From NCBI RefSeq assembly GCF_002056295.1, contig NZ_CP020100.1:504001-568000 (forward strand): DNA of 64,000 bases. Reading direction: 5' to 3'. How positions within the stretch are numbered: position 1 is the first letter of the stretch; each line of letters begins with the position of its first letter. The notes beneath the pieces were generated by a model. The model was not told where the DNA came from, made no database searches, and saw only the letters and a program-made list of their open reading frames with translations. The position numbers and the translations under genes were made by a program. Of the stretch, positions 9,083 through 34,452 are shown piece after piece. Origin of the DNA: Halopseudomonas phragmitis. GTDB lineage: Bacteria; Pseudomonadota; Gammaproteobacteria; Pseudomonadales; Pseudomonadaceae.

Positions 9083-9116
9083 GCGTGCTGCCTGCCAGCC
9101 GCTGGGCAAGAACCCA

Positions 9117-18327: not shown

Positions 18328-18366
18328 CACTATTTAGCTTAGAGCCGGACCCGAGCTTGTCAAATT

Positions 18367-18385
18367 ATGTAGCGAGGCGATACAT
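18367..18385. promoter_or_regulatory. operator 2 for the MarR regulator, overlapping its own promoter
   Basis: ATGTAGCGAGGCGATACAT is 19 bp with inverted ATGTA/TACAT ends, 58 bp from operator 1. A -35 TTGTCA (18357-18362) and 17-bp spacer place a -10 ATACAT at 18380-18385 inside it, so binding would block transcription of the MarR gene itself. Initiation would then fall at or very near ATG 18393. Confidence 0.65.
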
Positions 18386-18392
18386 TGCAGCC

Positions 18393-18956
18393 ATGAGCAC
18401 CTCATCTCTGCTTCTTGAGCGCCTGAGCGCACTGATCCAGCAAGCCGTGCGCGACGACGCTGCCCGCCATGGCCTGCTGCCGATCCAGTTACAGGTGCTG
18501 CATTATTTGGTCCAAGCCAACCGCTACAGTGACTTGCCGATTGCGATTGCCGAATATTTCGGCATCACCCGCGGTACCGTCTCCCAGACCCTGGCAGTTC
18601 TGGAGCGCCGCGGCCTGCTGGTCAAACAGACTGATCCCCGGCACGGCAAACGCATCCACCTGCAGTTGACCGACAATGCCCGGCAGATTCTCGAACACAG
18701 CTGGGTCCAGCGGCTGGACAGCGCCCTGCACAGCCTGCCTGCAGCCGAACACACAGAGGCCGGCCTGCGTGAACTGCTGAGCGCTCTGCAACGACTCAAC
18801 GGCCAGCAGGCGTTCGGCATTTGCCAGCACTGTGTCCATTTCTGCCCGGACTCGCACGGCCACCACTGCGGCCTGACCAGTGAGCCGCTAGAATCTGAGC
18901 AAAGCCAGTTGATCTGCCGGGAGTGGCAGGCGCCAGCACAGTCGAGGGAGACCTGA
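18393..18956 (+). CDS. MarR-family regulator with Cys/His-rich C-terminal tail
   Basis: 187 residues. A winged helix spans ~30-110 (YFGITRGTVSQTLAVLERRG, then DPRHGKRIHLQLT). The tail beyond residue 140 holds Cys144, Cys147, Cys151, Cys159 and Cys175 with His146, 149, 157 and 158 (GICQHCVHFC, GHHCGL, ICREW), a likely metal or Fe-S site absent from ordinary MarR proteins. The start at ATG 18393 is preferred; an upstream TTG at 18357 would add residues covering the promoter. It is divergent from the P460-redoxin operon and flanked by two matching operators, so autoregulation and control of that operon are inferred. Confidence 0.88.
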   Translation: MSTSSLLLERLSALIQQAVRDDAARHGLLPIQLQVLHYLVQANRYSDLPIAIAEYFGITRGTVSQTLAVLERRGLLVKQTDPRHGKRIHLQLTDNARQILEHSWVQRLDSALHSLPAAEHTEAGLRELLSALQRLNGQQAFGICQHCVHFCPDSHGHHCGLTSEPLESEQSQLICREWQAPAQSRET

Positions 18957-18960
18957 AGCC

Positions 18961-19956
18961 CTAGCGGCGTTGCTCTATTGCCGCCACGCCCTGCCCGCGC
19001 TTGTAAGCCGCCAGCATTTCCTGAATCTTCAACGTCGCCTCACGGGTTCGCCCCGACAGCTGTTTGACTTCATCGGCGACCACCGAGAAACCCCGCCCAG
19101 CCTCGCCGGCCCGCGCCGCTTCAATCGCCGCGTTGAGTGCCAGCAGGTTGGTCTGATCAGCGATGCCACGAATCACTTCAACCACCTGGGCAATCTGGGC
19201 ATAGGTGGCTTCGGTCGCAGCCTGCTCACGCTGACGCAGGCTTTCGGCATGTTTTTCATCGGAAATATCGCGCATCGCGCCAACCACTCGGGTCAGGCGT
19301 CCACGGGCATCGCGCAGCCCGCGCCCACGCTCGCGGAACCAGGTTTCGCCCCTGGTCTTGTGGGTCATCCGGTACTCGACCACGTAGCAGGCCTCCGGAT
19401 CCTTCGACTGAGCGAACTCGGCGAACACCGCCATCATGCGCTTGAAGTCCTCGGGATGAGTAATCCGTTCATAGCTGTCCCAGCCATCGGCAAACTCCTC
19501 GGCGCTGTAGCCGATCAGTGCGCGGAACTGTGGGGACCAGCGCAGCACGTTGGCCGGGTGATCGACATCACCATCGACCACTCTCAGATCCCAGCTACCC
19601 TCGGTCAGGGTCTGGCGGGTCAGTTCCCAGACCGCCTGTTCTTCTCGATAACGCTCCAGGGCCGCCAGGCTTTCGCCCAGCTCAGCCTGGGCCTGCTGAT
19701 ACTGCTGTTGATAAAGCTGCGCCTGGGACTCGGCCGCAGCCAGTTGCTGCTGCAACCCGGACGACGGCTCAAGCTGAGGTTGACGCTGATCCTGTAGGCT
19801 GGGCCGGGTCAGCTCCAGCCAGTCGCTAGCCAGTCGCCCCAGTGCCTGTTCAAGCTCAGGGTAGCCGCCCATCTCTGGCTGCCCTCGGCCATCGAGTACC
19901 TGGTGGATAGCGGCGGCGGCCCGCTCTGACAATGCACGCCGTTTGGCACCGAACAT
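18961..19956 (-). CDS. soluble PAS-containing methyl-accepting chemotaxis-type protein
   Basis: 331 residues without transmembrane helices. An N-terminal Gln-rich coiled coil (~65-110) precedes a PAS domain (~122-230, [20 protein letters not shown], then the PAC segment [14 protein letters not shown]). A short MCP signalling hairpin follows, with the tip [20 protein letters not shown] near residue 265 and [10 protein letters not shown]. The signalling domain is much shorter than in classical chemoreceptors. Its ATG overlaps the transaminase stop (TAATG), so it is the last, coupled gene of the amine-catabolic operon and may sense a redox or energy state arising from that metabolism. Confidence 0.85.
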
Positions 19957-21338
19957 TACTGCTGCTCCCGGAACCAGCGTTCGGTATCATCCAACGCCCG
20001 GGCAAAACGCTCGAGGATCATATCGATTTCAGCGGCTTGCACGATCAGTGGCGGGCAGAAGGCCAAGGCATCACCCATATTGCGGTTGATCATGCCGTAC
20101 TGCTGAGTCCGTCCGGCCAGGTATCGTCCCAGACGCCCCACCGCCTCAAACGGGGCCTTGCTGGCCTTGTCGGCGACCAGTTCCACCGCCCCGATCAACC
20201 CGCACCCACGCACCTCCCCGACCAGCGGATGATCACTGAAGCCGGCCAGCCCGGCATGCAGGCGCTGGCCCATAAGCGCCGCCTGCTCAACCAGATGCTG
20301 CTCTTCAATGATCCGCAGATTCTCCAGCGCCACCGCCGTGGCGACCGGGTGACCGCCGCCGGTAAAGCCGTGGCCCAACGCCCCGAAGCTGTGGCTCTGG
20401 TCGGCAATCGGCTGGTAAATGCTGTCGTTGATTAGCAGCGCGGCGATCGGCTGGTAGGATGAAGACAGTTGCTTGGACAGCACCATGACATCCGGCTCAA
20501 TGGCAAAGGTCTGGCTACCGAACATCTGCCCGGTGCGGCCAAAGCCGCAGATCACCTCGTCAACCACCACCAGCACATCATGCTTGCGGCACACCGCCTG
20601 GACCCTTTCCCAGTACCCCCTGGGCGGCACTATCACCCCGCCGGCGCCCATCAACGGCTCGGCATAGAAGGCCGCCACGGTCTCCGGGCCCTCACGCAGG
20701 ATGGTCTGTTCCAGCTCATCGGCCAGCCGCCCGGCAAACTGCTCCTCGGTTTCACCGGGCAGGGCATGGCGATAGTGGTGTGGACAGCCAACATGCACAA
20801 ACCCCGGCAATGGCACATCGAAGCCGCGCTGGTTGGCCGGCAGTCCGGTCAGGCTGGCACTGGCCAGGGTAATGCCGTGATAGCCATTGAGACGACTGAT
20901 GAATTTCTTTTTCTGGTTAAGCCCCAGGGCATTGTTGCGATACCAGATCAGCTTGATCACAGTGTCGTTGGCCTCGGAACCGGAGTTGGTGAAGAACACC
21001 TTGCTCATCGGTACTGGCGCCATCTCGATCAGTTTTTCCGCCAGTTCGATGCTCGGGGCATGGGCCTTGTGACTGAACAGATGATAGAACGGCAGGCTGC
21101 GCAACTGACGCTCGGCGGCCTGGATCAGGCGCTGATTGTTGAACCCCAGCGCCACACTCCAGAGCCCGGACATAGCCTCGATGTACTCGTTGCCCTGATC
21201 ATCGTAGACATAAATTCCTGCACCCCGCTCGATCACCAAAGGCCCCTGCTGTTCATGCAGGCGTGCGTCGGTATAAGGGTGCAGATGGTGGCGGATATCT
21301 TTTTGCGCCAGGCTCGACAGCGATGCGAGTTGGTTCAT
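19956..21338 (-). CDS. class III omega-aminotransferase (SpuC/GabT-like)
   Basis: 460 residues. Fold-type I PLP enzyme with [16 protein letters not shown], the PLP-phosphate segment [12 protein letters not shown], the Asp in [13 protein letters not shown] and catalytic Lys289 ([12 protein letters not shown]). Closest in pattern to pyruvate-dependent omega-amine/omega-amino acid aminotransferases such as SpuC. It would transfer the amino group of GABA or a related omega-amino compound or diamine and give a semialdehyde for the GabD-like enzyme encoded immediately upstream in the operon (51 bp gap). Cytoplasmic. Substrate assignment is by context. Confidence 0.9.
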
Positions 21339-21389: not shown

Positions 21390-22844
21390 TCAGTGGATGC
21401 CGCCCAGACACAGGTATTTGATTTCCAGGTAATCGTCGATGCCGTACTTCGAGCCTTCACGGCCCAGTCCGGAGGACTTGACCCCGCCAAACGGTGCCAG
21501 CTCGGTGGAGATCAGTCCGGTATTGATACCGACCATGCCGTACTCCAGCGCCTCGGCTACCCGAAATACCCGCCCCAGATCCCGGGCATAGAAATACGAG
21601 GCCAGACCATATTCAGTGGCATTGGCCAATGCGATCACCTCGGCCTCATCCCGAAACCGGAACAGCGGTGCCAGCGGGCCAAAGGTTTCCTCTCGGGCGA
21701 CCAGGGCATCAGCCGGCACATCGACCAGAATGGTCGGCTCGAAGAACCCGCCCCCCAAGGCATGCGGCTGCCCCCCACAAACCAACTGCGCGCCCCGCGT
21801 CAGGGCATCATCAATATGCTGCTGAACCTTGGCCAGCGCCTGGGCATCAATCAACGGGCCGGTGGTCACCCCGGGCTCCAGACCATTACCAATCTTCAGG
21901 CCGGCCACCGCGACCCGCAATTTGTCGACGAACGCGTCATAGACCTGATCATGGATATACAGGCGATTGGCACAGACACAGGTCTGCCCGTTATTGCGGA
22001 ACTTGGAGATCAGCGCTCCCTCTACCGCAGCATCCAGGTCGGCATCCTCGAACACGATAAAGGGCGCATTGCCACCCAGTTCCAGTGACACCTTCTTGAT
22101 ATCGGCGGCGCACTCGGCCAGCAGTTGCCGGCCAATTTCGGTCGAACCGGTGAAGCTCAGCTTGCGCACGCTGGGATTACTGGTCAGTTCGGCACCGACG
22201 TCTGCGGCACTGCCGGTGACCACACTGAACACCCCCGGCGGAATCCCGGCCTGCTCGGCCAGCTCGGCCAGCGCCAGGGCCGAGAACGGAGTTTGCGACG
22301 CCGGTTTCAGCACCATGGTGCAACCGGCCGCCAGCGCTGGCCCGACCTTGCGGGTAATCATGGCACTGGGGAAGTTCCACGGCGTGATCGCCGCCGTCAC
22401 CCCGATCGGTTGCTTGAGCACTAAAATCCGCTTGTCGTGCTGGTGCCCGGGAATGGTATCGCCGTAGACCCGCTTGGCTTCCTCGGCAAACCATTCGAGG
22501 AAGGAGGCCGCATAACCGACTTCGCCCCTGGCCTCAGCCAGCGGCTTACCCTGCTCCAGGGTCATCAGCCGGGCCAGGTCATCCTGGTTGGCCAGCATCA
22601 GTTCATACCAGCGCCGCAGCCGGGAGGCCCTCTCCTTGGCCGTCAACGCACGCCAGCCCGGCAGCGCCCGCTCAGCGGCGGCAATGGCCCGCCGGGTCTC
22701 CGCGCGACCCATCCGCGGCACCTGGCCCAGCAGCTCGGCGTTAGCTGGGTTACGTACGGCGAGCAGCTGACCATTGTCGGCCTCACTCCATTGCCCATCG
22801 ATGTAGGCCAACTGACGAAACAGACGCGGATTGTTCAATTGCAT
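21390..22844 (-). CDS. gabD: NAD(P)-dependent succinate-semialdehyde dehydrogenase
   Basis: 484 residues from ATG 22844, which has GAGG six bases upstream; a GTG at 22856 would overlap the preceding stop by 4 bp. Motifs: WNFPSAMITRKVGPALAAGC, catalytic Glu in LELGGNAPF and nucleophile Cys289 (NNGQTCVCANR), with the GabD-specific C-terminal GINTGLISTELAPFGGVKSS. Length equals E. coli GabD (482). It oxidises succinate semialdehyde to succinate; GabD enzymes may also take glutarate semialdehyde. Third gene of the leftward amine operon. Confidence 0.93.
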   Translation of the reverse strand: MQLNNPRLFRQLAYIDGQWSEADNGQLLAVRNPANAELLGQVPRMGRAETRRAIAAAERALPGWRALTAKERASRLRRWYELMLANQDDLARLMTLEQGKPLAEARGEVGYAASFLEWFAEEAKRVYGDTIPGHQHDKRILVLKQPIGVTAAITPWNFPSAMITRKVGPALAAGCTMVLKPASQTPFSALALAELAEQAGIPPGVFSVVTGSAADVGAELTSNPSVRKLSFTGSTEIGRQLLAECAADIKKVSLELGGNAPFIVFEDADLDAAVEGALISKFRNNGQTCVCANRLYIHDQVYDAFVDKLRVAVAGLKIGNGLEPGVTTGPLIDAQALAKVQQHIDDALTRGAQLVCGGQPHALGGGFFEPTILVDVPADALVAREETFGPLAPLFRFRDEAEVIALANATEYGLASYFYARDLGRVFRVAEALEYGMVGINTGLISTELAPFGGVKSSGLGREGSKYGIDDYLEIKYLCLGGIH

Positions 22845-22852
22845 GGCAAACC

Positions 22853-24349
22853 TCACAACTTGATCCAGGTGGCCTTGAGTTCGGTGTACTTGTCGAACGC
22901 ATGCAGCGACTTGTCACGGCCGTTGCCCGACTGCTTGAAGCCGCCGAACGGCGCGGTCATGTCACCACCGTCGTACTGGTTGACCCAGACACTGCCGGCC
23001 CGCAGCGCCTTGGCTGCCCGGTGGGCCTTGGACAGGTCGCGGGTCCAGACCGCCGCCGCCAGCCCGTAGATGGTGTCGTTGGCAATCGCAATGGCTTCAT
23101 CGAAGTCCTTGAAGCTGAGCACCGACAGCACCGGGCCAAAGATTTCCTCGCGGGCGATACGCATGTCATTGCGCACCCCGTCGAACAGGGTCGGCTCGAC
23201 ATAGAATCCGCCGGTTTCCTCCAGCACCCGCTGACCGCCACTGACCAGCCGTGCACCATCCTCATGCCCGGCCTCGATATAACGCAGCACGGTGTCAATC
23301 TGGCTGGTGTCGACCAGCGCGCCGACCGTGGTGTTCGGGTCCAGCGGGTTGCCCGGCTGCCAGTGGGCCTTGAGCGCCGCGGCGACCTTCTCGACAAAGG
23401 CGTCCTTGATTGAGGCTTCGACCAGCAGCCGCGAGCCGGCAGTGCAGACCTCGCCCTGGTTGAAGGCGATGGCACCGGCAGCGGCCTGGGCCGCGGCGTC
23501 CAGATCCGGGGCATCGGCGAAGACGATGTTCGGGCTCTTGCCACCCGCTTCCAGCCAGACCCGCTTCATGTTCGACTCGCCGGCATAGATCATCAGTTGC
23601 TTGGCCACCCGGGTTGAGCCGGTGAACACCAGAGTATCGACATCCATATGCAGGGCCAGAGCCTTGCCGACGGTATGACCGAAACCCGGCAGCACATTCA
23701 GCACCCCGGCCGGCAGGCCGGCCTCAAGGGCGATCTGGGCCAGGCGGATGGCAGTCAGCGGCGATTTCTCCGAGGGTTTGAGCACCACCGAGTTGCCGGT
23801 AGCCAGGGCCGGGCCGAGTTTCCAGCAGGCCATCAGCAGCGGGAAGTTCCACGGCACGATGGCGGCGACCACGCCGACCGGCTCGCGGGTGACCAGCCCG
23901 AGTTCATCGTGGGCGGTGGCCGCCACTTCGTCGTAGATCTTGTCGATCGCCTCGCCACTCCAGCGGATCGCCCGCGCCGCACCGGGGATGTCCACTGCCA
24001 GGGCGTCGCTGATCGGCTTGCCCATGTCCAGGGTTTCCAGCAGGGCCAGCTCTTCACCATGCTGTTCGATCAGCTCGGCAAAGCGGATCAGCACCTGCTT
24101 GCGCTGGGTCGGCGCCAGGCGTGACCAGACCCCGGAATCAAAGGTGGCGCGGGCATTGGCCACCGCCAGATCGGCATCGCTCTGACCACAGCTGGCGATC
24201 TGCGCCAGCACCCGGCCGTCGATCGGGCTGAGGCAGTCGAAGGTTTCGCCACCGACGGCGTTCTGATACTGACCATTGATAAAGGCCTGACCTTGAATCT
24301 GCCAGGCACGGGCCCGTTGTTCCCAGGTTTCACGAGTAATGCCGGTCAT
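22853..24349 (-). CDS. puuC: gamma-glutamyl-gamma-aminobutyraldehyde dehydrogenase
   Basis: 498 residues, with very close resemblance to E. coli PuuC (495): ALLETLDMGKPISDAL, WKLGPALATGNSVVLKPSEK, Glu in VWLEAGGKSPNIVFAD, nucleophile Cys302 (NQGEVCTAGSR) and the C-terminal DGGDMTAPFGGFKQSGNGRD. PuuC oxidises gamma-glutamylated or free aminoaldehydes with NAD(P). Its stop overlaps the alternative GTG start of gabD by four bases. It supports an aminoaldehyde intermediate in this operon's pathway. Confidence 0.93.
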   Translation of the reverse strand: MTGITRETWEQRARAWQIQGQAFINGQYQNAVGGETFDCLSPIDGRVLAQIASCGQSDADLAVANARATFDSGVWSRLAPTQRKQVLIRFAELIEQHGEELALLETLDMGKPISDALAVDIPGAARAIRWSGEAIDKIYDEVAATAHDELGLVTREPVGVVAAIVPWNFPLLMACWKLGPALATGNSVVLKPSEKSPLTAIRLAQIALEAGLPAGVLNVLPGFGHTVGKALALHMDVDTLVFTGSTRVAKQLMIYAGESNMKRVWLEAGGKSPNIVFADAPDLDAAAQAAAGAIAFNQGEVCTAGSRLLVEASIKDAFVEKVAAALKAHWQPGNPLDPNTTVGALVDTSQIDTVLRYIEAGHEDGARLVSGGQRVLEETGGFYVEPTLFDGVRNDMRIAREEIFGPVLSVLSFKDFDEAIAIANDTIYGLAAAVWTRDLSKAHRAAKALRAGSVWVNQYDGGDMTAPFGGFKQSGNGRDKSLHAFDKYTELKATWIKL

Positions 24350-24379: not shown

Positions 24380-25063
24380 TTAGAAACGCTCAAGAAAGTC
24401 CGCCAGCAGGCGCCGGCAGTTGTCCTTATTGTCCGCCGCACGTAGACCAATTTCGGCCCGCATGCGCTCGGGCAGATCACCGGCGGTGGCGAGAAACTGC
24501 TGGCCTTGCGGACTACTTCGCCAGTAATTGGTCCAGGTATCGAACATCGACACAGTGATTTCCGGGTGGAACTGCACACCCAGCGCCCGTCCCTGGCGGA
24601 ACGCCTGCGGGGCCAGATCAGTTTCAGCCAGCAAGCTGGCGGTCGCCGGCAGCCGGAAGGTATCGAAGTGAAAATTCAGCCATGGTCCAGGATGTTGCCA
24701 CTCGTCGCGGACCAGACACTGCAAAGGAGTCCAGCCGATCTCAGCTTGGCGATTGCGCACAGCTTGCCCGCCCAGAGCCCGGGCCAGGATCTGACTACCA
24801 AAACAAATCCCTAGGGTAGGCACTCCGTATCCCTGGACCCGTTTCAACCAGGCCAGCTCTGCAGCAAGCCAAGGCAAACTCTGATCGTAAGCCGACTCAG
24901 GACTGCCCAGCACCAGCAGCAGATCGAGGGTTTCCGGGGCCGGCAATGGATCAGTGACCTGGAGCAGTTCCAGATCAATTCCCTGCTCAGCCAACAGCTC
25001 GGGAAGCGTCCCGGCAACGTCACCGGGGGCGTGGAGAATGGCTACAGCACGAGAAGTTTTCAT
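24380..25063 (-). CDS. class I glutamine amidotransferase-like (candidate gamma-glutamyl amide hydrolase) 1
   Basis: 227 residues. GATase1 fold with nucleophile Cys87 (LGICFGSQILARALGG) and a His-x-Glu pair in VQFHPEIT, so the triad is complete. It resembles GMP-synthase-type GATases rather than PuuD (peptidase C26). First gene of the leftward operon, followed by puuC after 30 bp. In gamma-glutamyl amine pathways such a protein can remove the glutamyl group; that role is inferred. A paralogue with the same fold lies in the divergent operon (28338-29066). Confidence 0.85.
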   Translation of the reverse strand: MKTSRAVAILHAPGDVAGTLPELLAEQGIDLELLQVTDPLPAPETLDLLLVLGSPESAYDQSLPWLAAELAWLKRVQGYGVPTLGICFGSQILARALGGQAVRNRQAEIGWTPLQCLVRDEWQHPGPWLNFHFDTFRLPATASLLAETDLAPQAFRQGRALGVQFHPEITVSMFDTWTNYWRSSPQGQQFLATAGDLPERMRAEIGLRAADNKDNCRRLLADFLERF

Positions 25064-25086: not shown

Positions 25087-25115
25087 AACTTATGAAACCA
25101 TATCTTATATTTCAA
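25087..25115 (-). promoter_or_regulatory. promoter/operator of the leftward amine operon (shared element, copy 1)
   Basis: Minus strand: -35 TTGAAA (25115-25110), 17-bp spacer, -10-like TAAGTT (25092-25087). The spacer contains the operator core seen on the plus strand as TATGAAACCATATCTTATATT. It aligns with copies 2 and 3, TATAAAACCATATTTTAAATT, over the whole core. The leader to ATG 25063 is short, ~15-20 nt. Confidence 0.65.
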
Positions 25116-25215
25116 ACCATGCCAATAGCGATGCGCATTTCTTAACAGACTCCAGCCGGTCGCTGCCTCTATCTTGGTAAAAAGCCGCAAAAATCCATGT
25201 AAAAAGCAAAACAGC

Positions 25216-25250
25216 TATTGAAAGATATAAAACCATATTTTAAATTGAAA
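25216..25250 (+). promoter_or_regulatory. promoter/operator of the P450 operon (shared element, copy 2)
   Basis: -35 TTGAAA (25218-25223), 17-bp spacer, -10-like TAAATT (25241-25246). The spacer carries TAAAACCATATTTTA, an inverted repeat with TAAAA/TTTTA arms. This 35-bp segment is 32/35 identical to 29241-29275 before the glutamine-synthetase-like gene. A 7-bp hairpin TGGTGCC/GGCACCA (25259-25284) lies at the predicted 5' end of the transcript. Confidence 0.75.
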
Positions 25251-25346
25251 TCACTTTCTGGTGCCTGAACCAGCCTCGGCACCACCCCTAAACCTACGGT
25301 CAGCCATACCAAACAACCAGGCTGAACCCGTTAACGGAGGTGTTGA

Positions 25347-26567
25347 ATGTCTACCGCTATCCCGTCGTCAACCGATGATGCACCCTATCTGGATGTGGCC
25401 AACCCGGCATTCTCTATGCGTTCGCCTGAGGTGCTGGCCGCTCGGGAAAAGAGCTGGTACGCCCGCACACCCTACGGCATTGCAGTACTGCGCTATGACG
25501 AGGTTAACAAGCTGCTACGCGACCAACGTCTGCGCCAGGGCAGTTATGCTTGGCCTGCTCACAATAACGCCACCGGCAGCTTTTCCGACTGGTGGATGCG
25601 CATGCTGTTGAGCAAGGAAGGTGCCGATCATTCGCGCCTGCGGCGTCTGGCCAACCCGGCCTTTTCTCCAAAACTGGTCAAGGCCCTGACCCCAGCATTT
25701 CAGGAAATCGCCAACGAGCTGATCGGCGATTTCATAGCCGACGGTCAATGTGAGTTCGTTTCACAGTTCTCAGAGCCCTACGCCACCCAGGTCATCTGCA
25801 CCCTGCTCGGACTACCACGTAGTGAATGGAAGGCTCTGGCCAAGCTTGCCTCGGATATGGGCCTGGCGCTGGGAGTGACCTTCAAGCGTGACGAAGCCAT
25901 TATCAACGCCGCCACTGACCGCCTGTTTGGTTATGCCGAACAGGCGGTAGCCAACCTCAAGCGCCAAGGCCTGGGCGAGGACTTTCTCAGCAGCCTGGTA
26001 CGTGCCAATGAGGAAGACAAAAATGCGCTCAGCGATCAGGAGCTGTACGACATGATCGTGTTGGCTATCTTCGGCGGCATCGATACCACCCGCAACCAGA
26101 TTGCACTGGCCATGGATACCTTCATCCAGCACCCCGAACAATGGCGTTTGCTAGGCGATGATCCCGAACTGGCCCGGGCGGCGGTCGAAGAAGTCATGCG
26201 GATACGCCCGACCGTAACCTGGGTAACCCGAGAGGCTCTGGAGGATTTCAGTTATCAGGGCCTGGAAATCAAACAGGGTACCACCGTGCATCTGTTCAGC
26301 CAGGCCGCAGGCACCGACCCACGAGCATTCAATAATCCCGAGTTCGACATCACTGCCAAGCGTTGCCCGCACTTCGGTTTTGGTGCCGGCGCTCACCATT
26401 GCATCGGCCACTTCATCGCCCGCGGCGACATGACCGTGGCCCTGGCGCTGCTGGCGCAACGGATGAAGAATCCTCGCTACAAGGGAACCCCCGAATGGTT
26501 GCCGGACAGCGGCAACACCGGCCCAATCAGCCTGCCGATTCAGTTTGATCCGGTATCGCAGCCATGA
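25347..26567 (+). CDS. cytochrome P450 monooxygenase
   Basis: 406 residues, soluble bacterial type. I-helix IFGGIDTTRNQ near 235, ExxR in EEVMRIRP, and heme-binding FGFGAGAHHCIG with axial Cys352. GGAGGTG sits ~6 bp before ATG 25347. The next two genes encode an FprA-type reductase (ATGA overlap) and a flavodoxin, forming a complete three-component system. With glutamine-synthetase-like and PuuC/GabD genes nearby, the best guess is alpha-hydroxylation of a cyclic or secondary amine, as shown for the mycobacterial piperidine/pyrrolidine P450 PipA. The substrate is not provable from sequence. Confidence 0.93.
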   Translation: MSTAIPSSTDDAPYLDVANPAFSMRSPEVLAAREKSWYARTPYGIAVLRYDEVNKLLRDQRLRQGSYAWPAHNNATGSFSDWWMRMLLSKEGADHSRLRRLANPAFSPKLVKALTPAFQEIANELIGDFIADGQCEFVSQFSEPYATQVICTLLGLPRSEWKALAKLASDMGLALGVTFKRDEAIINAATDRLFGYAEQAVANLKRQGLGEDFLSSLVRANEEDKNALSDQELYDMIVLAIFGGIDTTRNQIALAMDTFIQHPEQWRLLGDDPELARAAVEEVMRIRPTVTWVTREALEDFSYQGLEIKQGTTVHLFSQAAGTDPRAFNNPEFDITAKRCPHFGFGAGAHHCIGHFIARGDMTVALALLAQRMKNPRYKGTPEWLPDSGNTGPISLPIQFDPVSQP

Positions 26568-27853
26568 ACTCGCCCAGCATTGCCATTGTGGGCAGTGGCC
26601 CCTCTGGCTGCTATCTGGCTCAGGCGCTGCGCAAGCACTGGCCAGCCAGCCAGGTATGTCTGCTCGACCGCCTGCCCGTCCCCTACGGTCTGGTACGCTA
26701 TGGGGTGGCGCCTGACCACCCCGGCACTAAAGCAGTAACTCGCCAGTTCGACCGGCTGTTCGAGCGTGAAGGAGTTCACTTTATTGGCAACCTCGAGGTT
26801 GGCCAGCATCTGCCGCTCGCCTCACTGCGCGCCGCCTTCGATATCGTAGTCTTGGCAACGGGCCTGTATGCCGACCGCCAGTTGGGGATTCCCGGTGAGC
26901 AACTGCCCGGTGTCTACGGTGCCGGACGCCTGACCCGACGCTTCAACGACCACCCGGATGAAGTCGGCTTCCAACCCGAACTGGGCCAGCGCTGCCTGAT
27001 CATCGGTAACGGCAATGTCGCCATCGACGTCCTGCGTCTGCTCAGCAAAACGGCAGAGGAATTCGGCGGCTCTGAGGTTTCTGCCCGCACGCTGGCCCAC
27101 TTTCAGCGCCAACCGCTGGCGCGGATCGATATCGTTGGCCGCTCCGCGCCTGATCAGGCCAAGTTCGATCCGGTCATGCTGCGTGAACTCGCTCAGTTAC
27201 AGCAGGTACGTTTTGAAATTCAGGCCAAGGATCTGCACTGCGACAGTGACGACAGGCTGGCCCAGGCCAAGATCGAAGCCTTGCGTTTGCTGGCTGAGCA
27301 CACCCCCAGCCAGCCACCGCGCCGCACAATCGCCTTTCACTTCGGCTGGAGTCCTGAGCAGATCGACGGTGAGCGACGGGTTCAAGGTATGCGCTTTCGG
27401 GCCAGCGCCAGCCGTGACGAGACCCTGCAGCTAGCCGCCGACAGCATCATCACTGCAATCGGATTTGCCGAACATGATGGTCAAGCCTTGAGTCAACACC
27501 ACCTGGCTGGCCAGCATGCTAATCCAGCTCACGGCCGGCTTGAACCTGGACTGTATTGCGCCGGCTGGTTCAAGCGTGGGCCACACGGCACCATTCCGGA
27601 CAATCGGCTCGACTCCCGGCGAGTTGCCGACACCATCATCAGTGACGCTGAACAACTACCACTGGGCAAACCCGGGCTTGATGCCCTACCCAGAGGACTG
27701 TTGCAGCACTGTACCGATTACGCTGGTTGGAAACGCCTGGATGCCGAGGAGACCTCCCAGGCTCCGGCCAACCGCCTGCGTCAAAAAATCAGCGACCTGG
27801 CACTCATGCTGGAGATTGCCCGCCCCACAATGACTGGAGAACAGCAGCCATGA
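26564..27853 (+). CDS. ferredoxin/adrenodoxin reductase-like FAD flavoprotein (FprA type)
   Basis: 429 residues. FAD-binding GSGPSGCYLAQAL at the N-terminus, the adrenodoxin-reductase segment LVRYGVAPDHPGTKAV, an NADP-binding GNGNVAIDVLRLL near 145, and the C-terminal GWFKRGPHGTIPDN. It would move electrons from NADPH to the flavodoxin encoded next and so to the P450. It overlaps both neighbours by ATGA. FprA-type reductases normally serve [2Fe-2S] or related ferredoxins, so pairing with an FMN flavodoxin is notable. Confidence 0.92.
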   Translation: MNSPSIAIVGSGPSGCYLAQALRKHWPASQVCLLDRLPVPYGLVRYGVAPDHPGTKAVTRQFDRLFEREGVHFIGNLEVGQHLPLASLRAAFDIVVLATGLYADRQLGIPGEQLPGVYGAGRLTRRFNDHPDEVGFQPELGQRCLIIGNGNVAIDVLRLLSKTAEEFGGSEVSARTLAHFQRQPLARIDIVGRSAPDQAKFDPVMLRELAQLQQVRFEIQAKDLHCDSDDRLAQAKIEALRLLAEHTPSQPPRRTIAFHFGWSPEQIDGERRVQGMRFRASASRDETLQLAADSIITAIGFAEHDGQALSQHHLAGQHANPAHGRLEPGLYCAGWFKRGPHGTIPDNRLDSRRVADTIISDAEQLPLGKPGLDALPRGLLQHCTDYAGWKRLDAEETSQAPANRLRQKISDLALMLEIARPTMTGEQQP

Positions 27854-28290
27854 AGATACTGGTGATTTACGGAACCGAAACCGGCAACGCAGAAATGGTC
27901 GCCGATGATCTGGTCGATGCCCTGAGCCAGGACTTTGAATCCAGCGGCCATGACATGGCGCACTTTGATCCGGCTACAATAGCCACCGATGACGTGCTAA
28001 TCGTGGTCTGCTCAACCTACGGCGATGGCGAATTGCCCAATTCTGCCCAACCCTTTTTCCAGCATCTGGACAGCCAGGCTCCGGACTTGACTGGAGTGCG
28101 TTTTGCTACGTTCGGGCTGGGCGACAGTTTCTATGAAACCTTCAATCGGGGAAGTCAGATCATTGCCGACAAGCTGGCCACATTGGGTGCCTGCGAATTC
28201 GGTCAACGAGGTGTGCATGATGCCTCCAGCGGTGAGTTGCCCGGCGAGATAGCCCTGAGCTGGCTCAAGCAGACGCTGGCGGAACTCTGA
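27850..28290 (+). CDS. short-chain flavodoxin (MioC-like)
   Basis: 146 residues from ATG 27850, which overlaps the reductase stop by ATGA. The FMN-phosphate loop is IYGTETGNAEMVAD, with further flavin contacts in STYGDGELPNSAQPFF and FGLGDSFYETFN. The start at 27727 in the same frame lies inside the reductase gene and is rejected. Predicted cytoplasmic electron carrier between the FprA-type reductase and the P450, an arrangement known from P450cin/cindoxin. Confidence 0.93.
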   Translation: MKILVIYGTETGNAEMVADDLVDALSQDFESSGHDMAHFDPATIATDDVLIVVCSTYGDGELPNSAQPFFQHLDSQAPDLTGVRFATFGLGDSFYETFNRGSQIIADKLATLGACEFGQRGVHDASSGELPGEIALSWLKQTLAEL

Positions 28291-28337
28291 CCACGTAAAG
28301 CCGCGTCCGTCTTTTTCTACCAGAGGCTTGAGCTACT

Positions 28338-29066
28338 ATGAGTCACACCGAAAATCGCCCCTTGCAGCTATGCATTATCGAAAACGGCTTGGTACCGGAG
28401 GAATTGCAAACCCGCTTTGCTTCCTACCCAACCATGATCGAGCAGTGGTTGTCCCCGGCCCTGCCCGAGGCCCGTTTCAGCCAGGTATCGGTAGTGCGTG
28501 GAGAGCCGCTGCCAGCTCCCGAGGCCTTCGATGGCTATCTGCTGACCGGTTCCAAACACAGTGTTTACGAGCAAGCTAACTGGATGCAGCGACTGATCAC
28601 CTTCCTGCAACAGCTGAAAACCCTACGTAAACCAGTGTTCGGTATCTGCTTTGGTCACCAGATAATGGCCGACGCCTTCGGCGGTCGCACCCGCAAGGCC
28701 GAACAGGGCTGGGGGGTCGGAGCTCAAGCATACCGGGACAATGGGCACGGGCCAGGAGCTGGTGCCAACCTGATCTTCCATCAGGACCAGGTTGTCGAAC
28801 TGCCTCCCGCTGCCCAGGTGCTGGGCGGCTCAGATCATTGCCCAAACGGCGTATTAGGTTACTGTTTTCCAGCGTTATCGGTGCAATACCATCCCGAATT
28901 CAACCCGGACTATGTCAGCGCTCTAGCCGAGCGCTATAGCGGCAATCTGATCAGTGCCGAGGTTGCCGATCATGCTTTGACGTCTTTGCAACAACTGTGC
29001 ATCGACAACCAGCGCGTTGCTCGCTGGGCCGCGCAGTTCTTCCGCCAGCATGCACCTCAACCCTAG
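28338..29066 (+). CDS. class I glutamine amidotransferase-like (candidate gamma-glutamyl amide hydrolase) 2
   Basis: 242 residues. GATase1 fold with Cys104 (FGICFGHQIMADAFGG) and His/Glu in VQYHPEFN. Last gene of the P450 operon, 47 bp after flavodoxin, and followed by a strong terminator. It is only distantly similar to the GATase at 24380-25063; having one in each divergent operon suggests different amide substrates or steps. No synthase domain is attached, so a free-standing hydrolase is likely. Confidence 0.85.
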   Translation: MSHTENRPLQLCIIENGLVPEELQTRFASYPTMIEQWLSPALPEARFSQVSVVRGEPLPAPEAFDGYLLTGSKHSVYEQANWMQRLITFLQQLKTLRKPVFGICFGHQIMADAFGGRTRKAEQGWGVGAQAYRDNGHGPGAGANLIFHQDQVVELPPAAQVLGGSDHCPNGVLGYCFPALSVQYHPEFNPDYVSALAERYSGNLISAEVADHALTSLQQLCIDNQRVARWAAQFFRQHAPQP

Positions 29067-29114
29067 ATTAAACCTATTAGACAGAATCTTTAAATAGCTC
29101 AAATTATTCTCCTT

Positions 29115-29150
29115 GGCCGGCCTCCCGCTTCATCGGGGCCGGCTTTTTTA
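29115..29150 (+). terminator. Rho-independent terminator of the P450 operon
   Basis: GCCGGCC (29116-29122) pairs with GGCCGGC (29137-29143) around a 14-nt loop, and six T follow directly (29144-29149). It lies 49 bp after the amidotransferase stop. The rest of the 306-bp gap (29067-29372) holds the promoter/operator at 29241-29275 and no gene that I can see. Confidence 0.88.
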
Positions 29151-29240
29151 TCTCTGCTGCGCACCCACCTCTTTTAGATCCCATATAAATCAATCCATTC
29201 TGCGGACATCCAGAAGAAAATCGACAAAACCCGAAATTTA

Positions 29241-29275
29241 TATTGAAAACTATAAAACCATATTTTAAATTTAAA
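29241..29275 (+). promoter_or_regulatory. promoter/operator of the glutamine-synthetase-like operon (shared element, copy 3)
   Basis: -35 TTGAAA (29243-29248), 17-bp spacer, -10-like TAAATT (29266-29271), with TAAAACCATATTTTA in the spacer. It differs from copy 2 (25216-25250) at only 3 of 35 positions although the flanks are unrelated. A leader of ~95 nt leads to ATG 29373, which has AAAGGAGAG upstream. Confidence 0.75.
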
Positions 29276-29372: not shown

Positions 29373-30749
29373 ATGACAGCGTTAGATCTGCATCGAGAAC
29401 ACAACACCAGCTCGGGAGTTGCCGAAGACCTGGCCGCGCGTATTCGTGATGCTGGTGTCGAGTATCTGTACTATCAGGTGGTCACACTGACCGGCCGGGT
29501 CATCGCCAAAGTAGTTCCAGCCAAGCATCTGCTGCGCAATCTGGACAAAGGTGTCCAGTTCCACCGCACCGCGATCTCCGACCTGCAAAGTACCCGTGAA
29601 GGGGTCCTGCTCGGCGGCGGCGCCCAGGCGGCCGAATTCACCGCCATGCCCGACGCAGGCAGCTTCAATGTACTGCCCTGGGATCGTTCACTCGGCGCGT
29701 TCTTCTGCCGCCTGTACGAACCGGAGCACCGCCCGGAGATCGGCGGCCAGACCCTGGCCACCGACCCGCGGAGCCTGCTGATCGACAGCCATCGGCGCTT
29801 TACCCAGGATACCGGACTGACCCTGAAAACCGGGTTGGAGCCGGAAATGTCCTGGCTGGGCAAGGATCTGGAAGTACACGTCCGCCCAGGTGCAAGCCCG
29901 GCCTACCATCTGGGCAACCTGGAACTGATGCGACCAATCTTCAAGAAGGTCATGGAATACGCCAGCGCCATGGGGCTGGACATGATCGAAGGTGATTACG
30001 AGGATCCCGGGCAACTGGAATTGAACTGGATGTTCGATGACTGCGAACTGACCGCCGACCGAATGATGACCTATCGTCTGATCTGCCGTCAGGTCGCTCG
30101 CGAGATGGGCGTTCAGGCCAGCTTCATGCCCAAGCCGACCACTGGCAGCATGGGTAACGGCTGTCACCACAACTTCAGCCTCTGGCGCGGTAACCAGAAC
30201 GTGCTGGCTGAGTCTGGCCGGCGCGACCTGCACCTGACCGATACCGGCCTGCATGCACTCGGTGGCGTACTCAAGCACGCCCCCGGCTCGATGATGATCA
30301 TGGCCTCGACGGTCAACTCCTACAAACGCTACTGGGATGCCGGGCTGTTCGCCCCCAATTGCGTCAACTGGGGTATGGACAACAAGACCTGCACCGTTCG
30401 GCTGTCGGCCAACGGCCGACTGGAATACAAGATCCCCGACGCCAGTGTAAACCCCTATCTGTCGCATGCCCTGTTGCTGGCCGCCATGCGCGATGGCCTG
30501 GAAAACCGAATCGAGCCCGGCGCTCCAGACAACAGCAACAGCATCCCCAGCGCCCCTGACCCTGCACGGATCCTGCCGAAAACCCTGGGTGACGCAATTC
30601 AGGCCTTCGACCAGGACCCAGTGATCCGCACTGCCCTGCCCGCCGATATGGCTCAGCTCTATCGTGACCTCAAGGCTGATGAGTGGGCCCGGTTCTGTTC
30701 CTATGTCACCGACTGGGAACGCAAGATGTATGTGGAGTACCTGCCATGA
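29373..30749 (+). CDS. glutamine synthetase-like gamma-glutamyl-amine ligase
   Basis: 458 residues. Glutamine synthetase fold: beta-grasp N-terminus, then TGLEPEMSW, MIEGDYEDPGQLELNW, PKPTTGSMGNGCHHNFSLW and an Arg-containing KTCTVRLS segment. It lacks the adenylylation-loop pattern of true GlnA. Size and context place it with PuuA/IpuC/GlnT-type enzymes that join glutamate to amines using ATP. In this island it would protect the amine released by P450 ring opening. A strong SD precedes ATG, and the stop overlaps the binding-protein gene by ATGA. Confidence 0.9.
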   Translation: MTALDLHREHNTSSGVAEDLAARIRDAGVEYLYYQVVTLTGRVIAKVVPAKHLLRNLDKGVQFHRTAISDLQSTREGVLLGGGAQAAEFTAMPDAGSFNVLPWDRSLGAFFCRLYEPEHRPEIGGQTLATDPRSLLIDSHRRFTQDTGLTLKTGLEPEMSWLGKDLEVHVRPGASPAYHLGNLELMRPIFKKVMEYASAMGLDMIEGDYEDPGQLELNWMFDDCELTADRMMTYRLICRQVAREMGVQASFMPKPTTGSMGNGCHHNFSLWRGNQNVLAESGRRDLHLTDTGLHALGGVLKHAPGSMMIMASTVNSYKRYWDAGLFAPNCVNWGMDNKTCTVRLSANGRLEYKIPDASVNPYLSHALLLAAMRDGLENRIEPGAPDNSNSIPSAPDPARILPKTLGDAIQAFDQDPVIRTALPADMAQLYRDLKADEWARFCSYVTDWERKMYVEYLP

Positions 30750-31438
30750 GCCCTCCCTTCCGTGTGATTTGCGCCGACCTGCCCGCTCCGCCGCTGTTCT
30801 GGAAGGACGCCGACGGCTACCGGCATGGCTACGAGTCCGATGTCGCCCGCTTGCTGGGCACCAAGCTCGGCCAGGAAACCCGCTTTGTCTACCAGAACTG
30901 GGCCGATTTCTATCCGGCCCTGGAAGCCGAGACCGGCGACATTCTGCTCTGCGGTCAGGGAATCTCCGAGTACCGCAAAAGCCTGGCCGATTTCAGCGAG
31001 CCCTACGCTGTTTTTGATGAAGCCGTCATGGTGCTGCGCGGCAGCCCGATCAGCAGTCCCACGGATCTGATCGGCAAGCGCGTCGGAGCCATCGCCAACA
31101 GCCTCAATATGGCGCTGGCAGAAACCTTCAACGGCTGCATTACGGTGCCGTTCGCCGGTGACTCCGAGGACGTCTTGGGCGATATGGTCAAGGCTCTGCG
31201 GGCCGGCAGCATCGATGCCTTCGTCGATGATGACGTCGCGCTAGTGCCACTGGCCGAAGAGGTCGATCTGGCCATTGCATTCACCGTGCCCAGCAACAAC
31301 GCCTGGGGCATTGCGGTCCGCAAGGGGGCCCCCGAGCGCTTGACGGCGGTCAACCAGGCCCTGGCCGAGGTCAAGCGCAGCGGTGAGCTGCAGGCCCTCT
31401 GGCACAAATGGATGCCCAGCCTGAGTTATCCGTTCTGA
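30746..31438 (+). CDS. periplasmic-binding-protein-fold (SBP_bac_3) protein without signal peptide
   Basis: 230 residues from ATG 30746, overlapping the synthetase stop. The fold signature is clear: LFWKDADGYRHGYESDVARL, GISEYRKSLADFSEPY, LIGKRVGAIANS and a C-terminal VNQALAEVKRSGELQALWHKW. The N-terminus MSPPFRVICADLPAPP has no signal sequence or lipobox, and no ABC permease or ATPase gene is nearby. It is therefore predicted to be cytoplasmic. Some proteins of this fold have become enzymes (cyclohexadienyl dehydratase); a metabolic or sensor role is possible. In-frame ORF extension to 30683 is rejected. Confidence 0.82.
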   Translation: MSPPFRVICADLPAPPLFWKDADGYRHGYESDVARLLGTKLGQETRFVYQNWADFYPALEAETGDILLCGQGISEYRKSLADFSEPYAVFDEAVMVLRGSPISSPTDLIGKRVGAIANSLNMALAETFNGCITVPFAGDSEDVLGDMVKALRAGSIDAFVDDDVALVPLAEEVDLAIAFTVPSNNAWGIAVRKGAPERLTAVNQALAEVKRSGELQALWHKWMPSLSYPF

Positions 31439-31519: not shown

Positions 31520-32245
31520 ATGAAAAAAACAACAACCTGCCTGTGCTCCGCCTTCATCTTCGGCACCGCTCTCACGGCTAGTGCAGAGTCCTTTGACACC
31601 CCACTTGGCAGCATTGATGCCAGCATGAGTGTTACCCTGGCCAGCGACTATATCTGGCGCGGCCAGTCACAGACCGCCGGAGCTGGCGCGATTCAGGGCA
31701 GCCTCGACTTTGCCCATGAGTCAGGGCTCTACATCGGGGCCTGGGCCTCGAATGTCGATGCCGACACCTTCGGCGCCAGCATCGAGATCGACTACTACCT
31801 GGGTTTCGCCGGCCAGCTCAGCGACAACCTCAGCTATGACCTGGCCTGGGCGACCTATACCTATCCCAAGGCTGGCGGTGCCGCCAGTGTCGATGAGATT
31901 CTGGCCAGCTTCAGCTTTCATGGCCTGACCATCGGCAGCAAGTACGCTTATGAGCCCCAGAGCGCTCTGTATACCTATGTCAGCTATGCCTTCGAGCTGC
32001 CCTATGATCTAGGCCTTGAGCTGCATATGGGACACACAGACACCAAGGATCCGCTCAATCCGCCGGCCGACAATGGCAAAACCTACCGTGACTGGGCCGT
32101 AACCCTGGGCAAAACCCTGCTGGGACTGGAGTGGGCTCTGATGTACTCGGACACCAATCTCAAAGGTTCGACCTGTGCCGCCTGGTACGGCAAGAGCCGC
32201 TATTGCAACGGCAATCTGACCTTGTCGGTATCCAAGGGCCTCTAA
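31520..32245 (+). CDS. TorF-family putative outer-membrane porin
   Basis: 241 residues. It has a signal peptide ending near TASAE, then SMSVTLASDYIWRGQSQT and alternating beta strands with aromatic girdle residues (ISYDLAWATYTY-like), ending SVSKGL. The pattern is the TorF / gcw_chp family of small outer-membrane barrels often linked to amine or nitrogen-compound uptake genes. GAGGAGAG precedes ATG 31520. Position after the gamma-glutamyl ligase operon fits entry of the substrate through the outer membrane. Confidence 0.82.
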   Translation: MKKTTTCLCSAFIFGTALTASAESFDTPLGSIDASMSVTLASDYIWRGQSQTAGAGAIQGSLDFAHESGLYIGAWASNVDADTFGASIEIDYYLGFAGQLSDNLSYDLAWATYTYPKAGGAASVDEILASFSFHGLTIGSKYAYEPQSALYTYVSYAFELPYDLGLELHMGHTDTKDPLNPPADNGKTYRDWAVTLGKTLLGLEWALMYSDTNLKGSTCAAWYGKSRYCNGNLTLSVSKGL

Positions 32246-32395: not shown

Positions 32396-33145
32396 ATGAA
32401 CGGAAAATCCACTCCCAACGCTGGTTCCTTCATGCGCCTTCGTCAGGAAGGTCGAACTGAAGAGGTTGTTCGACGCCTGATGGAAGCCATTGATCTGGGC
32501 CTGTATTCCGAAGGCCAGCAACTGCCCAGCGAAAGCGAGCTGGCCATGCAGTTCGGCGTCGCCACAGTCACCCTGCGCGAGGCCTTAGCCTATCTGCGGC
32601 AACGCGGTGTGATAGAAACCCGACGCGGCCGCAACGGCGGCAGCTTCGTCTGTAATTCGGTAGAAATTCCCGCCGACATACTGCTCGACCAACTCAACGA
32701 ACTCAGCACCATCGAACTGCGCGACCTCGGTGATGAACACGTTGCCATCGCCGGTACCGCCGCACGCCTGGCAGCCAAACGCGGCACCGAAGAGCACCAC
32801 CAACACCTGGCTCACTACATCGCGGCCTTGGGCGAAGCCCAAAGCCGGCGCGAGCGGCGCCGGGCCGATGCTCGCTTTCATATTGAGGTGGCTGCAGCCT
32901 CGCAATCGGTGCGCCTGACCCATGCGGAAATTCGCCTACAGGCGGAAGTCGGTGAGCTTCTGTGGCTGCCATCAGCTTCAACACCAAACCCCGAAACAGT
33001 GCAACAGGAACATCAGGCCATTCTGGATGCCATCATCAGCGGCGATTCAACGCTGGCTGGAGCCTTGGCTGAAGCACACGTCAACCGGGGCATCAAGCGC
33101 CTGATCAGCCTCAAACTGGAGCTTTTATCCTCTGAGACTGAATGA
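32396..33145 (+). CDS. GntR/FadR (FCD)-family transcriptional regulator
   Basis: 249 residues. An N-terminal winged helix (LPSESELAMQFGVATVTLRE, then RRGRNGGSFV) is followed by an all-helical FCD effector domain (~90-235) with acidic/His residues (ADARFHIEVAAAS, EHQAILDAIISGD) that usually bind a metal. It is the only DNA-binding regulator in the amine island, so it is the leading candidate to bind the three shared promoter/operator elements. A GntR regulator (PipR) likewise accompanies the mycobacterial pipA P450. An inducer amine or acid is expected. Confidence 0.9.
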   Translation: MNGKSTPNAGSFMRLRQEGRTEEVVRRLMEAIDLGLYSEGQQLPSESELAMQFGVATVTLREALAYLRQRGVIETRRGRNGGSFVCNSVEIPADILLDQLNELSTIELRDLGDEHVAIAGTAARLAAKRGTEEHHQHLAHYIAALGEAQSRRERRRADARFHIEVAAASQSVRLTHAEIRLQAEVGELLWLPSASTPNPETVQQEHQAILDAIISGDSTLAGALAEAHVNRGIKRLISLKLELLSSETE

Positions 33146-33146
33146 T

Positions 33147-33162
33147 TGGCATAACCCTTGCC
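33147..33162 (+). promoter_or_regulatory. candidate sigma-54 promoter of the cache-domain gene
   Basis: TGGCATAACCCTTGCC has GG at 33148-33149 and GC at 33160-33161 with exactly 10 bp between, and matches 9 of 11 fixed positions of TGGCACG-N4-TTGCW. It lies just after the GntR stop and ~95 bp before ATG 33256, which favours that start over ATG 33142. Confidence 0.6.
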
Positions 33163-33255
33163 TGCTATTTTTTGACCAACATCAAAAATCTCCCGCCTGA
33201 TCCCGTTATTTCCTCGGGAAACCTCACTAGGTCAGGCACAGCGAGGGTTAAGGCC

Positions 33256-34014
33256 ATGGCCGAAGACGCACTCAACCGCGAACTGCAGGACTGCATCTCA
33301 CGGATCGACGTTTCCATCAGTAACATCTTCGCCCAGATCGACATCCTGGCCCGAGAAGTCTGTGCCATCTGGCAGCAGCAAGGCTCACCCGGCAAGGCAC
33401 CTGCAGCACGCGACCTGAAGTCCCTGCGACCACTGATCGATAGCCATCTGGCAGCCCCCAGAAGTTGCCTGCAAGGTACAGGAGTGGTGCTTGAACCTAA
33501 CGTGCTACAGGATCGGGAGATGTACTGCGAGTGGCGACACCTGACCACCAACGGTCGCATCGCCCCACTGGATCTGAACTTCAACCGCAGCAGTGACAGC
33601 TACTACAATTACCGCGACATGCCCTGGTTCACCCGCCCGCGCAGTACTGGCCAGCGGGTTGTCATCGGCCCCTATATCGACCTCTACGGGCAGGACACCT
33701 ATATTCTTACCTTCGCCCAGCCGCTGAATGTCGACGGGCGCTTCATCGGCATTGCCGGGGCCGATATCGCCCTCGGTCGCTTCGAGCGCATTCTGGTCTC
33801 TGGGCTGCTGAAAATGAGCCATGAAGCCTTCATTGTCACCGATGAAGGCCGGGTAGTAGCAGCCAACACTGCAAACTGGACTGCCGGCGAGCTGGCCCGG
33901 CATGCCATGTCGCGTAGCGAAAATCACTGCACGGTCGTTGACCTGGGTGAGCAGGCTTCACACTGGGCACTGGTCCAGCGTCCCTGTATCCGTCAGTTAG
34001 CGGGCGCCGCCTGA
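33256..34014 (+). CDS. soluble cache (PDC)-domain protein without output domain
   Basis: 252 residues from ATG 33256 (AAGG upstream, and the frame follows a sigma-54-type promoter). An in-frame ATG at 33142 overlapping the GntR stop would add 38 residues with no clear signal or membrane helix. The core has the cache/PDC sensor pattern: YYNYRDMPWF, a QRVVIGPYIDLYGQDTYIL-type strand and LNVDGRFIGIAGADIAL. No kinase, MCP or GGDEF module follows. Such stand-alone sensors often sit beside FCD regulators; a ligand-binding partner role is inferred. Confidence 0.75.
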   Translation: MAEDALNRELQDCISRIDVSISNIFAQIDILAREVCAIWQQQGSPGKAPAARDLKSLRPLIDSHLAAPRSCLQGTGVVLEPNVLQDREMYCEWRHLTTNGRIAPLDLNFNRSSDSYYNYRDMPWFTRPRSTGQRVVIGPYIDLYGQDTYILTFAQPLNVDGRFIGIAGADIALGRFERILVSGLLKMSHEAFIVTDEGRVVAANTANWTAGELARHAMSRSENHCTVVDLGEQASHWALVQRPCIRQLAGAA

Positions 34015-34060: not shown

Positions 34061-34244
34061 CATAAAGTATTACATCAGCTTATTAAGGTTACACTCTGTA
34101 ACAACCGCTTCTGCCGCCTCTGACCCCATCGTGGGGCAAATCCATACCATCACGCACAAACCCGGGGCAGTATCTCCCCACGCCAGAGGGCTTAGAAGCG
34201 CATTAGAGTCACAAAAACAAATACATTTAAACTCATATGAAATA

Positions 34245-34260
34245 TGGCACGAGCCGTGCT
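34245..34260 (+). promoter_or_regulatory. sigma-54 (-24/-12) promoter of the MFS gene
   Basis: TGGCACGAGCCGTGCT matches TGGCACG-N4-TTGCW at every fixed position but one. GG is at 34246-34247 and GC at 34258-34259, 10 bp apart. Transcription would start near 34271. No enhancer-binding protein gene is in the window, so an NtrC-like activator elsewhere is expected. Confidence 0.75.
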
Positions 34261-34452
34261 TGTAATAAAGCAGACCCACGCGGACCGCCTCAGGCCGGCA
34301 CGGGTTCACACCACCGATAGGCCAGACCACAGAAGACAAAACCGCCTATGGAGCGCGCCAACAGGCGCAGGAAAACCGGTACCGCCGCTCGGATCGAGTA
34401 CTGGTTATGCCTGCCCAGCGCCCTTCAGGACCATTGCTTGAGAGGACTTCCC

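Follow-up and report, generated by a model that had tools for sequence, protein, structure and literature searches.

A conserved A/T-rich operator-like element at three promoters of a putative amine-degradation island of Halopseudomonas phragmitis, and the FCD-type GntR protein that may read it

The stretch analysed here, called the window, comprises 64,000 nucleotides of the Halopseudomonas phragmitis genome (assembly GCF_002056295.1, contig NZ_CP020100.1, positions 504,001 to 568,000, forward strand). It holds a cluster of genes that looks like a pathway for the degradation of an amine and is referred to below as the amine island. A short A/T-rich element occurs at three promoters of this island, and a gene for a GntR-type regulator of the FadR/FCD subfamily lies among its genes. 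The element, proposed to be the operator of this regulator, is for brevity called the operator. Its three copies, the promoters in which they are embedded and the regulator are listed first, followed by the other genes of the island; all coordinates are those of the window.

25091-25111, + strand: candidate operator copy 1, TATGAAACCATATCTTATATT, found by pattern scans and matrix; inverted relative to the leftward operon that it would serve
25226-25246, + strand: candidate operator copy 2, TATAAAACCATATTTTAAATT, found by pattern scans and matrix
29251-29271, + strand: candidate operator copy 3, TATAAAACCATATTTTAAATT, found by pattern scans and matrix
25097-25125, - strand: putative sigma70-type promoter of the leftward operon, TTGGCA (25125-25120)-N17-TATGGT (25102-25097), assigned with the help of homologous sites; its -10 element lies inside operator 1
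25218-25246, + strand: putative promoter of the P450 operon, TTGAAA (25218-25223)-N17-TAAATT (25241-25246), with operator 2 occupying the spacer and overlapping the -10 element
29243-29271, + strand: putative promoter of the glutamine-synthetase-like operon, TTGAAA (29243-29248)-N17-TAAATT (29266-29271), assigned from coordinates and homologous sites
32396-33145, + strand: GntR regulator, FadR/FCD subfamily (PF00392 and PF07729), proposed reader of the operators

18961-19956, - strand: PAS-MCP chemoreceptor, end of the leftward operon
19956-21338, - strand: class-III aminotransferase, leftward operon
21390-22856, - strand: GabD-type dehydrogenase, leftward operon
22853-24349, - strand: PuuC-like aldehyde dehydrogenase (profile match), leftward operon
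24380-25063, - strand: class-I glutamine amidotransferase-like protein with a presumed PuuD-like role, first gene of the leftward operon, which is predicted from spacing
25347-26567, + strand: P450
26564-27853, + strand: FAD oxidoreductase
27850-28290, + strand: flavodoxin, ATG start
28338-29066, + strand: second class-I amidotransferase
29373-30749, + strand: glutamine-synthetase-like ligase
30683-31438, + strand: family-3 solute-binding protein
31520-32245, + strand: TorF porin
33142-34014, + strand: dCache-domain protein, beside GntR in the relatives mapped
34348-35646, + strand: MFS transporter

Direct comparison bore out the original prediction that the segments 25216-25250 and 29241-29275 are identical at 32 of 35 positions within dissimilar flanking sequence, and that both contain TTGAAA-N17-TAAATT with TATAAAACCATATTTTA in the spacer region. 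At no more than three mismatches the pattern TATRAAACCATATYTTAWATT was matched three times in the window and not once in 100 dinucleotide-preserving shuffles. The same scan of the whole genome (4,035,153 bases) returned three matches, all of them within the amine island, and the backwards control of the pattern gave none in this genome. Random scatter of the motif over the genome, which the prediction had named as speaking against it, is thus refuted. All three copies carry the asymmetric core on the + strand, so that the one before the leftward operon is inverted with respect to the gene that it faces.

The element was followed into related clusters by a search with the P450, which gave 21 loci. 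Twelve of these (L004-L014 and L018, in Pseudomonas, Ventosimonas and Bisbaumannia) carry the cluster, and in all twelve the motif was found upstream of the P450 gene, without mismatch in 11 and with one mismatch in L010. The motif scan covered the loci other than L020-L024, whose P450s are 27-29% identical. In the P450 stretches L015, L016, L017 and L019 (49-67% identity) neither a GntR match nor the motif at up to six mismatches was found; these stretches come from distant taxa, L016 and L019 being short contigs, and lend weak support to the linkage of motif and regulator. In rearranged clusters the sites stay with the transcription units. L006 has four strong ones (at the GabD, P450, GATa/PuuC and glutamine-synthetase homologues, with a weaker one further on), and L117 likewise has four. 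L008, in which the homologues of the P450, the FAD oxidoreductase, the flavodoxin, GATb, the glutamine-synthetase-like ligase, the solute-binding protein and GATa are co-directional, has one site, at the P450 operon. Many loci, for example L089-L097, hold the Cache and GntR genes opposite a PuuC-like gene with a site between them and without the P450 cluster. In L089 (minimal locus 8842-12256) PotD/PotC-like transporter genes and amidohydrolases were seen nearby. In two loci a degenerate operator copy that retains the TTGAAA flank lies 103 bp before GntR itself (L108:10132-10152 and L109:9583-9603), which suggests weak autoregulation in some solo loci.

The position of the operator relative to the promoter elements was compared among sites found with a weight matrix, which had been derived from 25 sites in clusters of the island type and which gave 49 matches in the real and 2 in the reversed sequence of 32 loci (588 kb). 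The comparison included 102 sites scoring at least 20, of which 97 remained after the five sites of L121, which shares its contig with L010, and of L099, which is nearly identical to L098, had been dropped. By the gene that they face, 33 sites were assigned to a forward class (P450 or glutamine-synthetase-like gene) and 45 to a reverse class (GATa, PuuC or GabD); 4 sites facing chemoreceptor genes were kept apart and 15 fell into no class and were not counted. Close relatives were otherwise kept in the counts, the forward class holding 12 and the reverse class 27 distinct 21-mers. TTGAAA-N17-TAWATT was present in 30 of the 33 forward sites. In the reverse class TTGGCA was found in 39 of 45 sites and TTGGCT in 2, TATGGT followed at a distance of 17 bp in 40 of 45, and TTGGCA and TATGGT stood together in 35 of 45. 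This -10 element is the complement of the ACCATA core. The -35 elements were not exchanged between the classes, as none of the 33 forward sites has TGCCAA at the reverse-class place and none of the 45 reverse sites has TTGAAA where the forward class has it. A spacer of 17 bp is ordinary for sigma70. Because of these conserved hexamers the leftward operator is read as inverted and covering the -10 element and the rightward ones as filling the spacer, and a single operator appears to serve two predicted sigma70 layouts in opposite orientations.

This changes part of the original prediction, in which the third copy (25087-25115) was described as TTGAAA-N17-TAAGTT facing the leftward operon. Both hexamers are present, at 25115-25110 and 25092-25087. 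As a promoter, however, the pair was rejected in favour of TTGGCA-N17-TATGGT, since at this place TTGAAA occurs in 2 of the 45 homologous sites (those of the window and of its sister L004) and TTGGCA in 39. With its inverted copy and its -10 element inside the operator, the leftward promoter also speaks against the view that all three copies are one and the same promoter-operator with a repressor bound in the spacer.

The comparison supports a cluster-specific operator at the three promoters, and the three elements probably serve as the operators of a single local regulon, which the FCD-type GntR protein would read and repress. Repression by covering promoter elements, as originally proposed, is supported as the likely mode. 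The GntR dimer would most likely bind the 17-bp core TATRAAACCATATYTTA and block RNA polymerase. In the promoters of the P450 and glutamine-synthetase-like operons this core occupies the 17-bp spacer and the beginning of the -10 element, and at the leftward promoter the same core, inverted, contains the -10 element TATGGT; a protein bound at either place would be expected to block the polymerase. The inducer is presumably an amine-derived, perhaps carboxylate-bearing, metabolite that would relieve binding and release all operons together. An unlikely alternative is that GntR does bind the element but works as an activator, or as a dual regulator that expression requires. The -35 elements TTGAAA and TTGGCA and the -10 elements TAWATT and TATGGT are not perfect consensus sequences, and some FCD proteins can activate. 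However, the operator overlaps the spacer and the -10 element, or the -10 element itself, where a bound dimer should block the polymerase, and the spacers are 17 bp and not the 19-20 bp of MerR-type activation.

The candidacy of GntR as the reader was examined by its co-occurrence with the motif. Within the genus the motif is present in 2 of 37 genomes and GntR in the same 2. For the family, 398 genomes evenly sampled from a larger group were scored for GntR at E<=1e-50 and for the motif at no more than one mismatch. GntR was found in 46 genomes and the motif in 30, 29 of which are common to both (hypergeometric P 5e-31, relatedness ignored). The backwards motif pattern matched in 1 of the 398 genomes, and the 352 genomes without GntR yielded one motif match in total. 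With the matrix, a site scoring at least 20 was present in all 46 GntR genomes, about ten of which had supplied training sites, and in 45 of them it lay within the GntR-bearing stretch; the minimal Cache-GntR/PuuC loci, which were outside the training, also hold sites. In an order sample of 390 genomes GntR was found in 5, one of them new (G587, 49%), and the locus of this newcomer has a weaker site (22.9) between homologues of the glutamine-synthetase-like and PuuC genes.

Other genes were compared by taking the open reading frames of at least 90 amino acids from 7 representative loci as queries and recovering them in 44 loci chosen from the 58 that hold a site; the window, L004, L018, L101 and the off-cluster loci stood outside this set. 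GntR and Cache, besides opposite-strand frames overlapping them, were the only ones recovered in 44 of 44 loci, and aldehyde-dehydrogenase frames were recovered in 42.

Beyond the original prediction, sites were also found away from these loci. The 17-mer, searched at no more than one mismatch in the 46 GntR genomes, gave eight sites that lie in neither a P450 cluster nor a GntR locus, and its backwards control gave 1 match in the 46 genomes (G091). Four of the eight, in 4 genomes, precede homologues of the window chemoreceptor by 41, 65, 68 and 180 bp, the starts being extrapolated from alignments. These chemoreceptor-linked copies are:

L115:9380-9400
L183:4821-4841
L184:4876-4896
L185:5096-5116

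Another lies 65 bp upstream (start again extrapolated) of a PuuC homologue in G176, a genome whose fetched cluster is without that gene. Co-occurrence, co-localisation and unlinked sites together speak for the GntR gene (32396) as regulator candidate. That it is the only DNA-binding regulator in the block, as had been claimed, fits the genes scanned; a MarR-type gene (18357-18956) stands immediately beyond it. This gene was considered as the regulator and rejected, as it had no match in the relatives' stretches around P450 homologues.

The GntR protein has an N-terminal winged helix (PF00392, 57.0 bits, cut-off 27) and a C-terminal FCD effector domain (PF07729, 64.5 bits, cut-off 24.3). Among solved structures it best matches a chain named pyruvate dehydrogenase complex repressor. 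Its scores against four NCBIfam equivalogs, among the best listed, are all far under the cut-offs (LldR 78.5/311, PdhR 69.4/330, NanR 66.4/260, GlcC 55.3/301). An alignment was made of 30 sequences, the window's own and 29 picked from a list of 120, in which the helix-turn-helix had a mean conservation of 0.90 and the FCD domain of 0.76. The FCD tetrad D158/H162/H206/H228, predicted to bind metal, is intact in 30 of 30; such an Asp/His tetrad is the metal site of many FCD domains. Thr57 and Val58 stand at what we take to be the positions of Arg45 and Thr46 of Escherichia coli FadR. Residue 47, at position 28 of the helix-turn-helix, is one of Ser, Thr, Asn and Ala in all 30 sequences and aligns with an Arg of the PdhR-named chain. 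According to a survey of the FadR subfamily (PMC4494728), its members usually have a G-contacting Arg at this position, and a residue other than Arg fits an operator poor in G/C.

In its winged helix, FCD domain and metal tetrad residues the protein is like the FadR/FCD repressors of catabolic operons (PdhR, LldR, GlcC and NanR), and with repressors described in the survey (PMC4494728) it would share a local regulon with sites at divergent operons. It differs from them in residue 47 and in an operator that is A/T-rich and not the palindromic TKGT-N3-ACMA. An atypical operator is nevertheless compatible with membership of the subfamily because NanR and BioR, listed in the same source as members, also have other motifs. 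A divergent intergenic region that holds two sites, each close to the operon it would serve, recalls the double-site divergons that are placed there in a 'separate sites' class (PMC4494728), whereas the two sites of the island use different promoter elements and have opposite orientations to their own genes.

Several observations weigh against a local regulon read by GntR. A symmetry-axis analysis of the core yielded no clear palindrome and no single axis, and the operator fits the FadR-subfamily consensus TKGT-N3-ACMA in just one half, TGGT (the reverse of ACCA), the other half not being conserved. The glutamine-synthetase-like or GATa sites are weak or absent in L005, L009 and L012-L014. The GntR stretch of G038 is without a site, its P450 contig L018 having two. 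The chemoreceptor sites keep TATGGT or TATGAT and none has TTGGCA. Three of the unlinked matches (two in G363, one in G170) have a deviating core and no link to the island was shown for them; a facing island gene was looked for at those in G170 and G363:C67 and none was found. Moreover, the co-occurrence of motif and GntR is phylogenetically non-independent, a motif match occurs in G094, a genome without GntR, and the Cache gene, which does not belong to a DNA-binding family, co-occurs with the motif as well as GntR does.

As GntR and Cache both travel with the motif, linkage alone names no binder, and a different, unlinked DNA-binding protein might read the motif with GntR as a mere fellow traveller; the match in G094 would agree with this. 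We consider it very unlikely, since no other tested frame was recovered in all 44 motif loci, such a regulator would need the patchy distribution of GntR (46 of 398 genomes), and the minimal loci keep GntR, Cache and PuuC together with the site. Scarcely credible is that the repeats are AT-rich promoter sequence or a recent promoter duplication and involve no regulator: two of the three copies are nearly identical and ordinary sigma70 hexamers lie inside them, but the core is conserved across several genera, gene arrangements and both orientations with different hexamers around it, which rules against duplication as the sole explanation, and chance AT-rich matching is contradicted by the whole-genome and 398-genome scans, with a single match among the genomes lacking GntR.

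What the genes of the island do can be outlined from their families. The GabD-type dehydrogenase passes its curated cut-off (943.4 against 828). The glutamine-synthetase-like ligase is under that for gamma-glutamylputrescine synthetase (198.9 against 650), the PuuC-like protein under that for PuuC (719.1 against 850), and both class-I amidotransferases are under those of the named equivalogs. The solved P450 nearest to that of the island is 3p3l, titled 'Cytochrome P450', with no substrate named. The island has a glutamine-synthetase-like ligase, a PuuC-like dehydrogenase, a class-I amidotransferase, an aminotransferase and a GabD-type dehydrogenase together, as in Puu-type gamma-glutamylation pathways. 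Unlike these, it places a P450, an FAD oxidoreductase and a flavodoxin ahead of these, which suggests that the amine is oxidised in the first step, and its proposed regulator is an FCD-GntR protein; the E. coli PuuR type is of a different family. The pathway looks like oxidation of a (possibly cyclic) amine, then gamma-glutamylation, with a GABA-shunt-like end. A literature search, whose coverage mostly did not extend to subscription papers, found no publication on the pathway of the island or its regulator among the titles and abstract openings listed. A paper on a molinate degrader (PMC9477822) contains the terms piperidine, P450 and glutamine synthetase. In the dCache-domain protein (33142-34014) no MCP signalling domain was found; it is possibly a sensor of the same amine. 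Elsewhere in the window an open frame of 3849 codons was noticed on the - strand, at 50057-61606.

A fourth, weaker element, overlooked in the original prediction, was seen before the MFS gene:

34226-34246, + strand: weak operator-like element preceding the MFS gene; its matrix score of 11.6 ranks fourth in the window
34245-34260, + strand: sigma54-like promoter TGGCACGAGCCGTGCT, abutting the operator-like element

The sigma54 consensus is TGGCAY-N5-TTGCW with GG-N10-GC at -24/-12. GG-N10-GC is present in TGGCACGAGCCGTGCT, and similar sequences, whose sigma54 dependence is putative, recur in other loci. The window and the scanned loci gave 13 matches to the sigma54-like pattern; an operator-like sequence begins exactly 19 bases upstream in 10 of them (the window and nine other loci) and 17 bases upstream in one, and two are unrelated. 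The operator-like sequences at those 11 matches score 11.6 to 26.6. The distance to a following MFS homologue is at most about 100 bp in 4 of the 11 (window, L004, L005, L008) and about 2.7 kb in another 4; in the other 3 none was seen in the fetched stretch. This arrangement suggests that at the MFS gene nitrogen control may be combined with GntR. Tentatively, and with somewhat less than even confidence, a wider reading can be proposed, in which one FCD-GntR repressor with a nearly non-palindromic, A/T-rich operator would run an amine-acquisition programme through three layouts (in a sigma70 spacer; inverted over a sigma70 -10 element; and of sigma54 type, the operator abutting the -24 element) and would extend to unlinked chemoreceptors. 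If this is true, sensing of the amine, swimming towards it, its import and its degradation would be switched as one.

The narrower conclusion, a local repressor-operator circuit of a known and fairly ordinary kind, appears well supported by comparison of sequences. It offers a proposed regulator and operator for the P450/gamma-glutamylation amine island and for the minimal GntR-Cache/PuuC locus of several genera of the family. The conserved 17-bp operator, the promoters and the candidate repressor may serve as a handle for finding the inducing amine. They also present a natural comparison, in which one operator varies in position and orientation relative to sigma70, and possibly sigma54, promoters.

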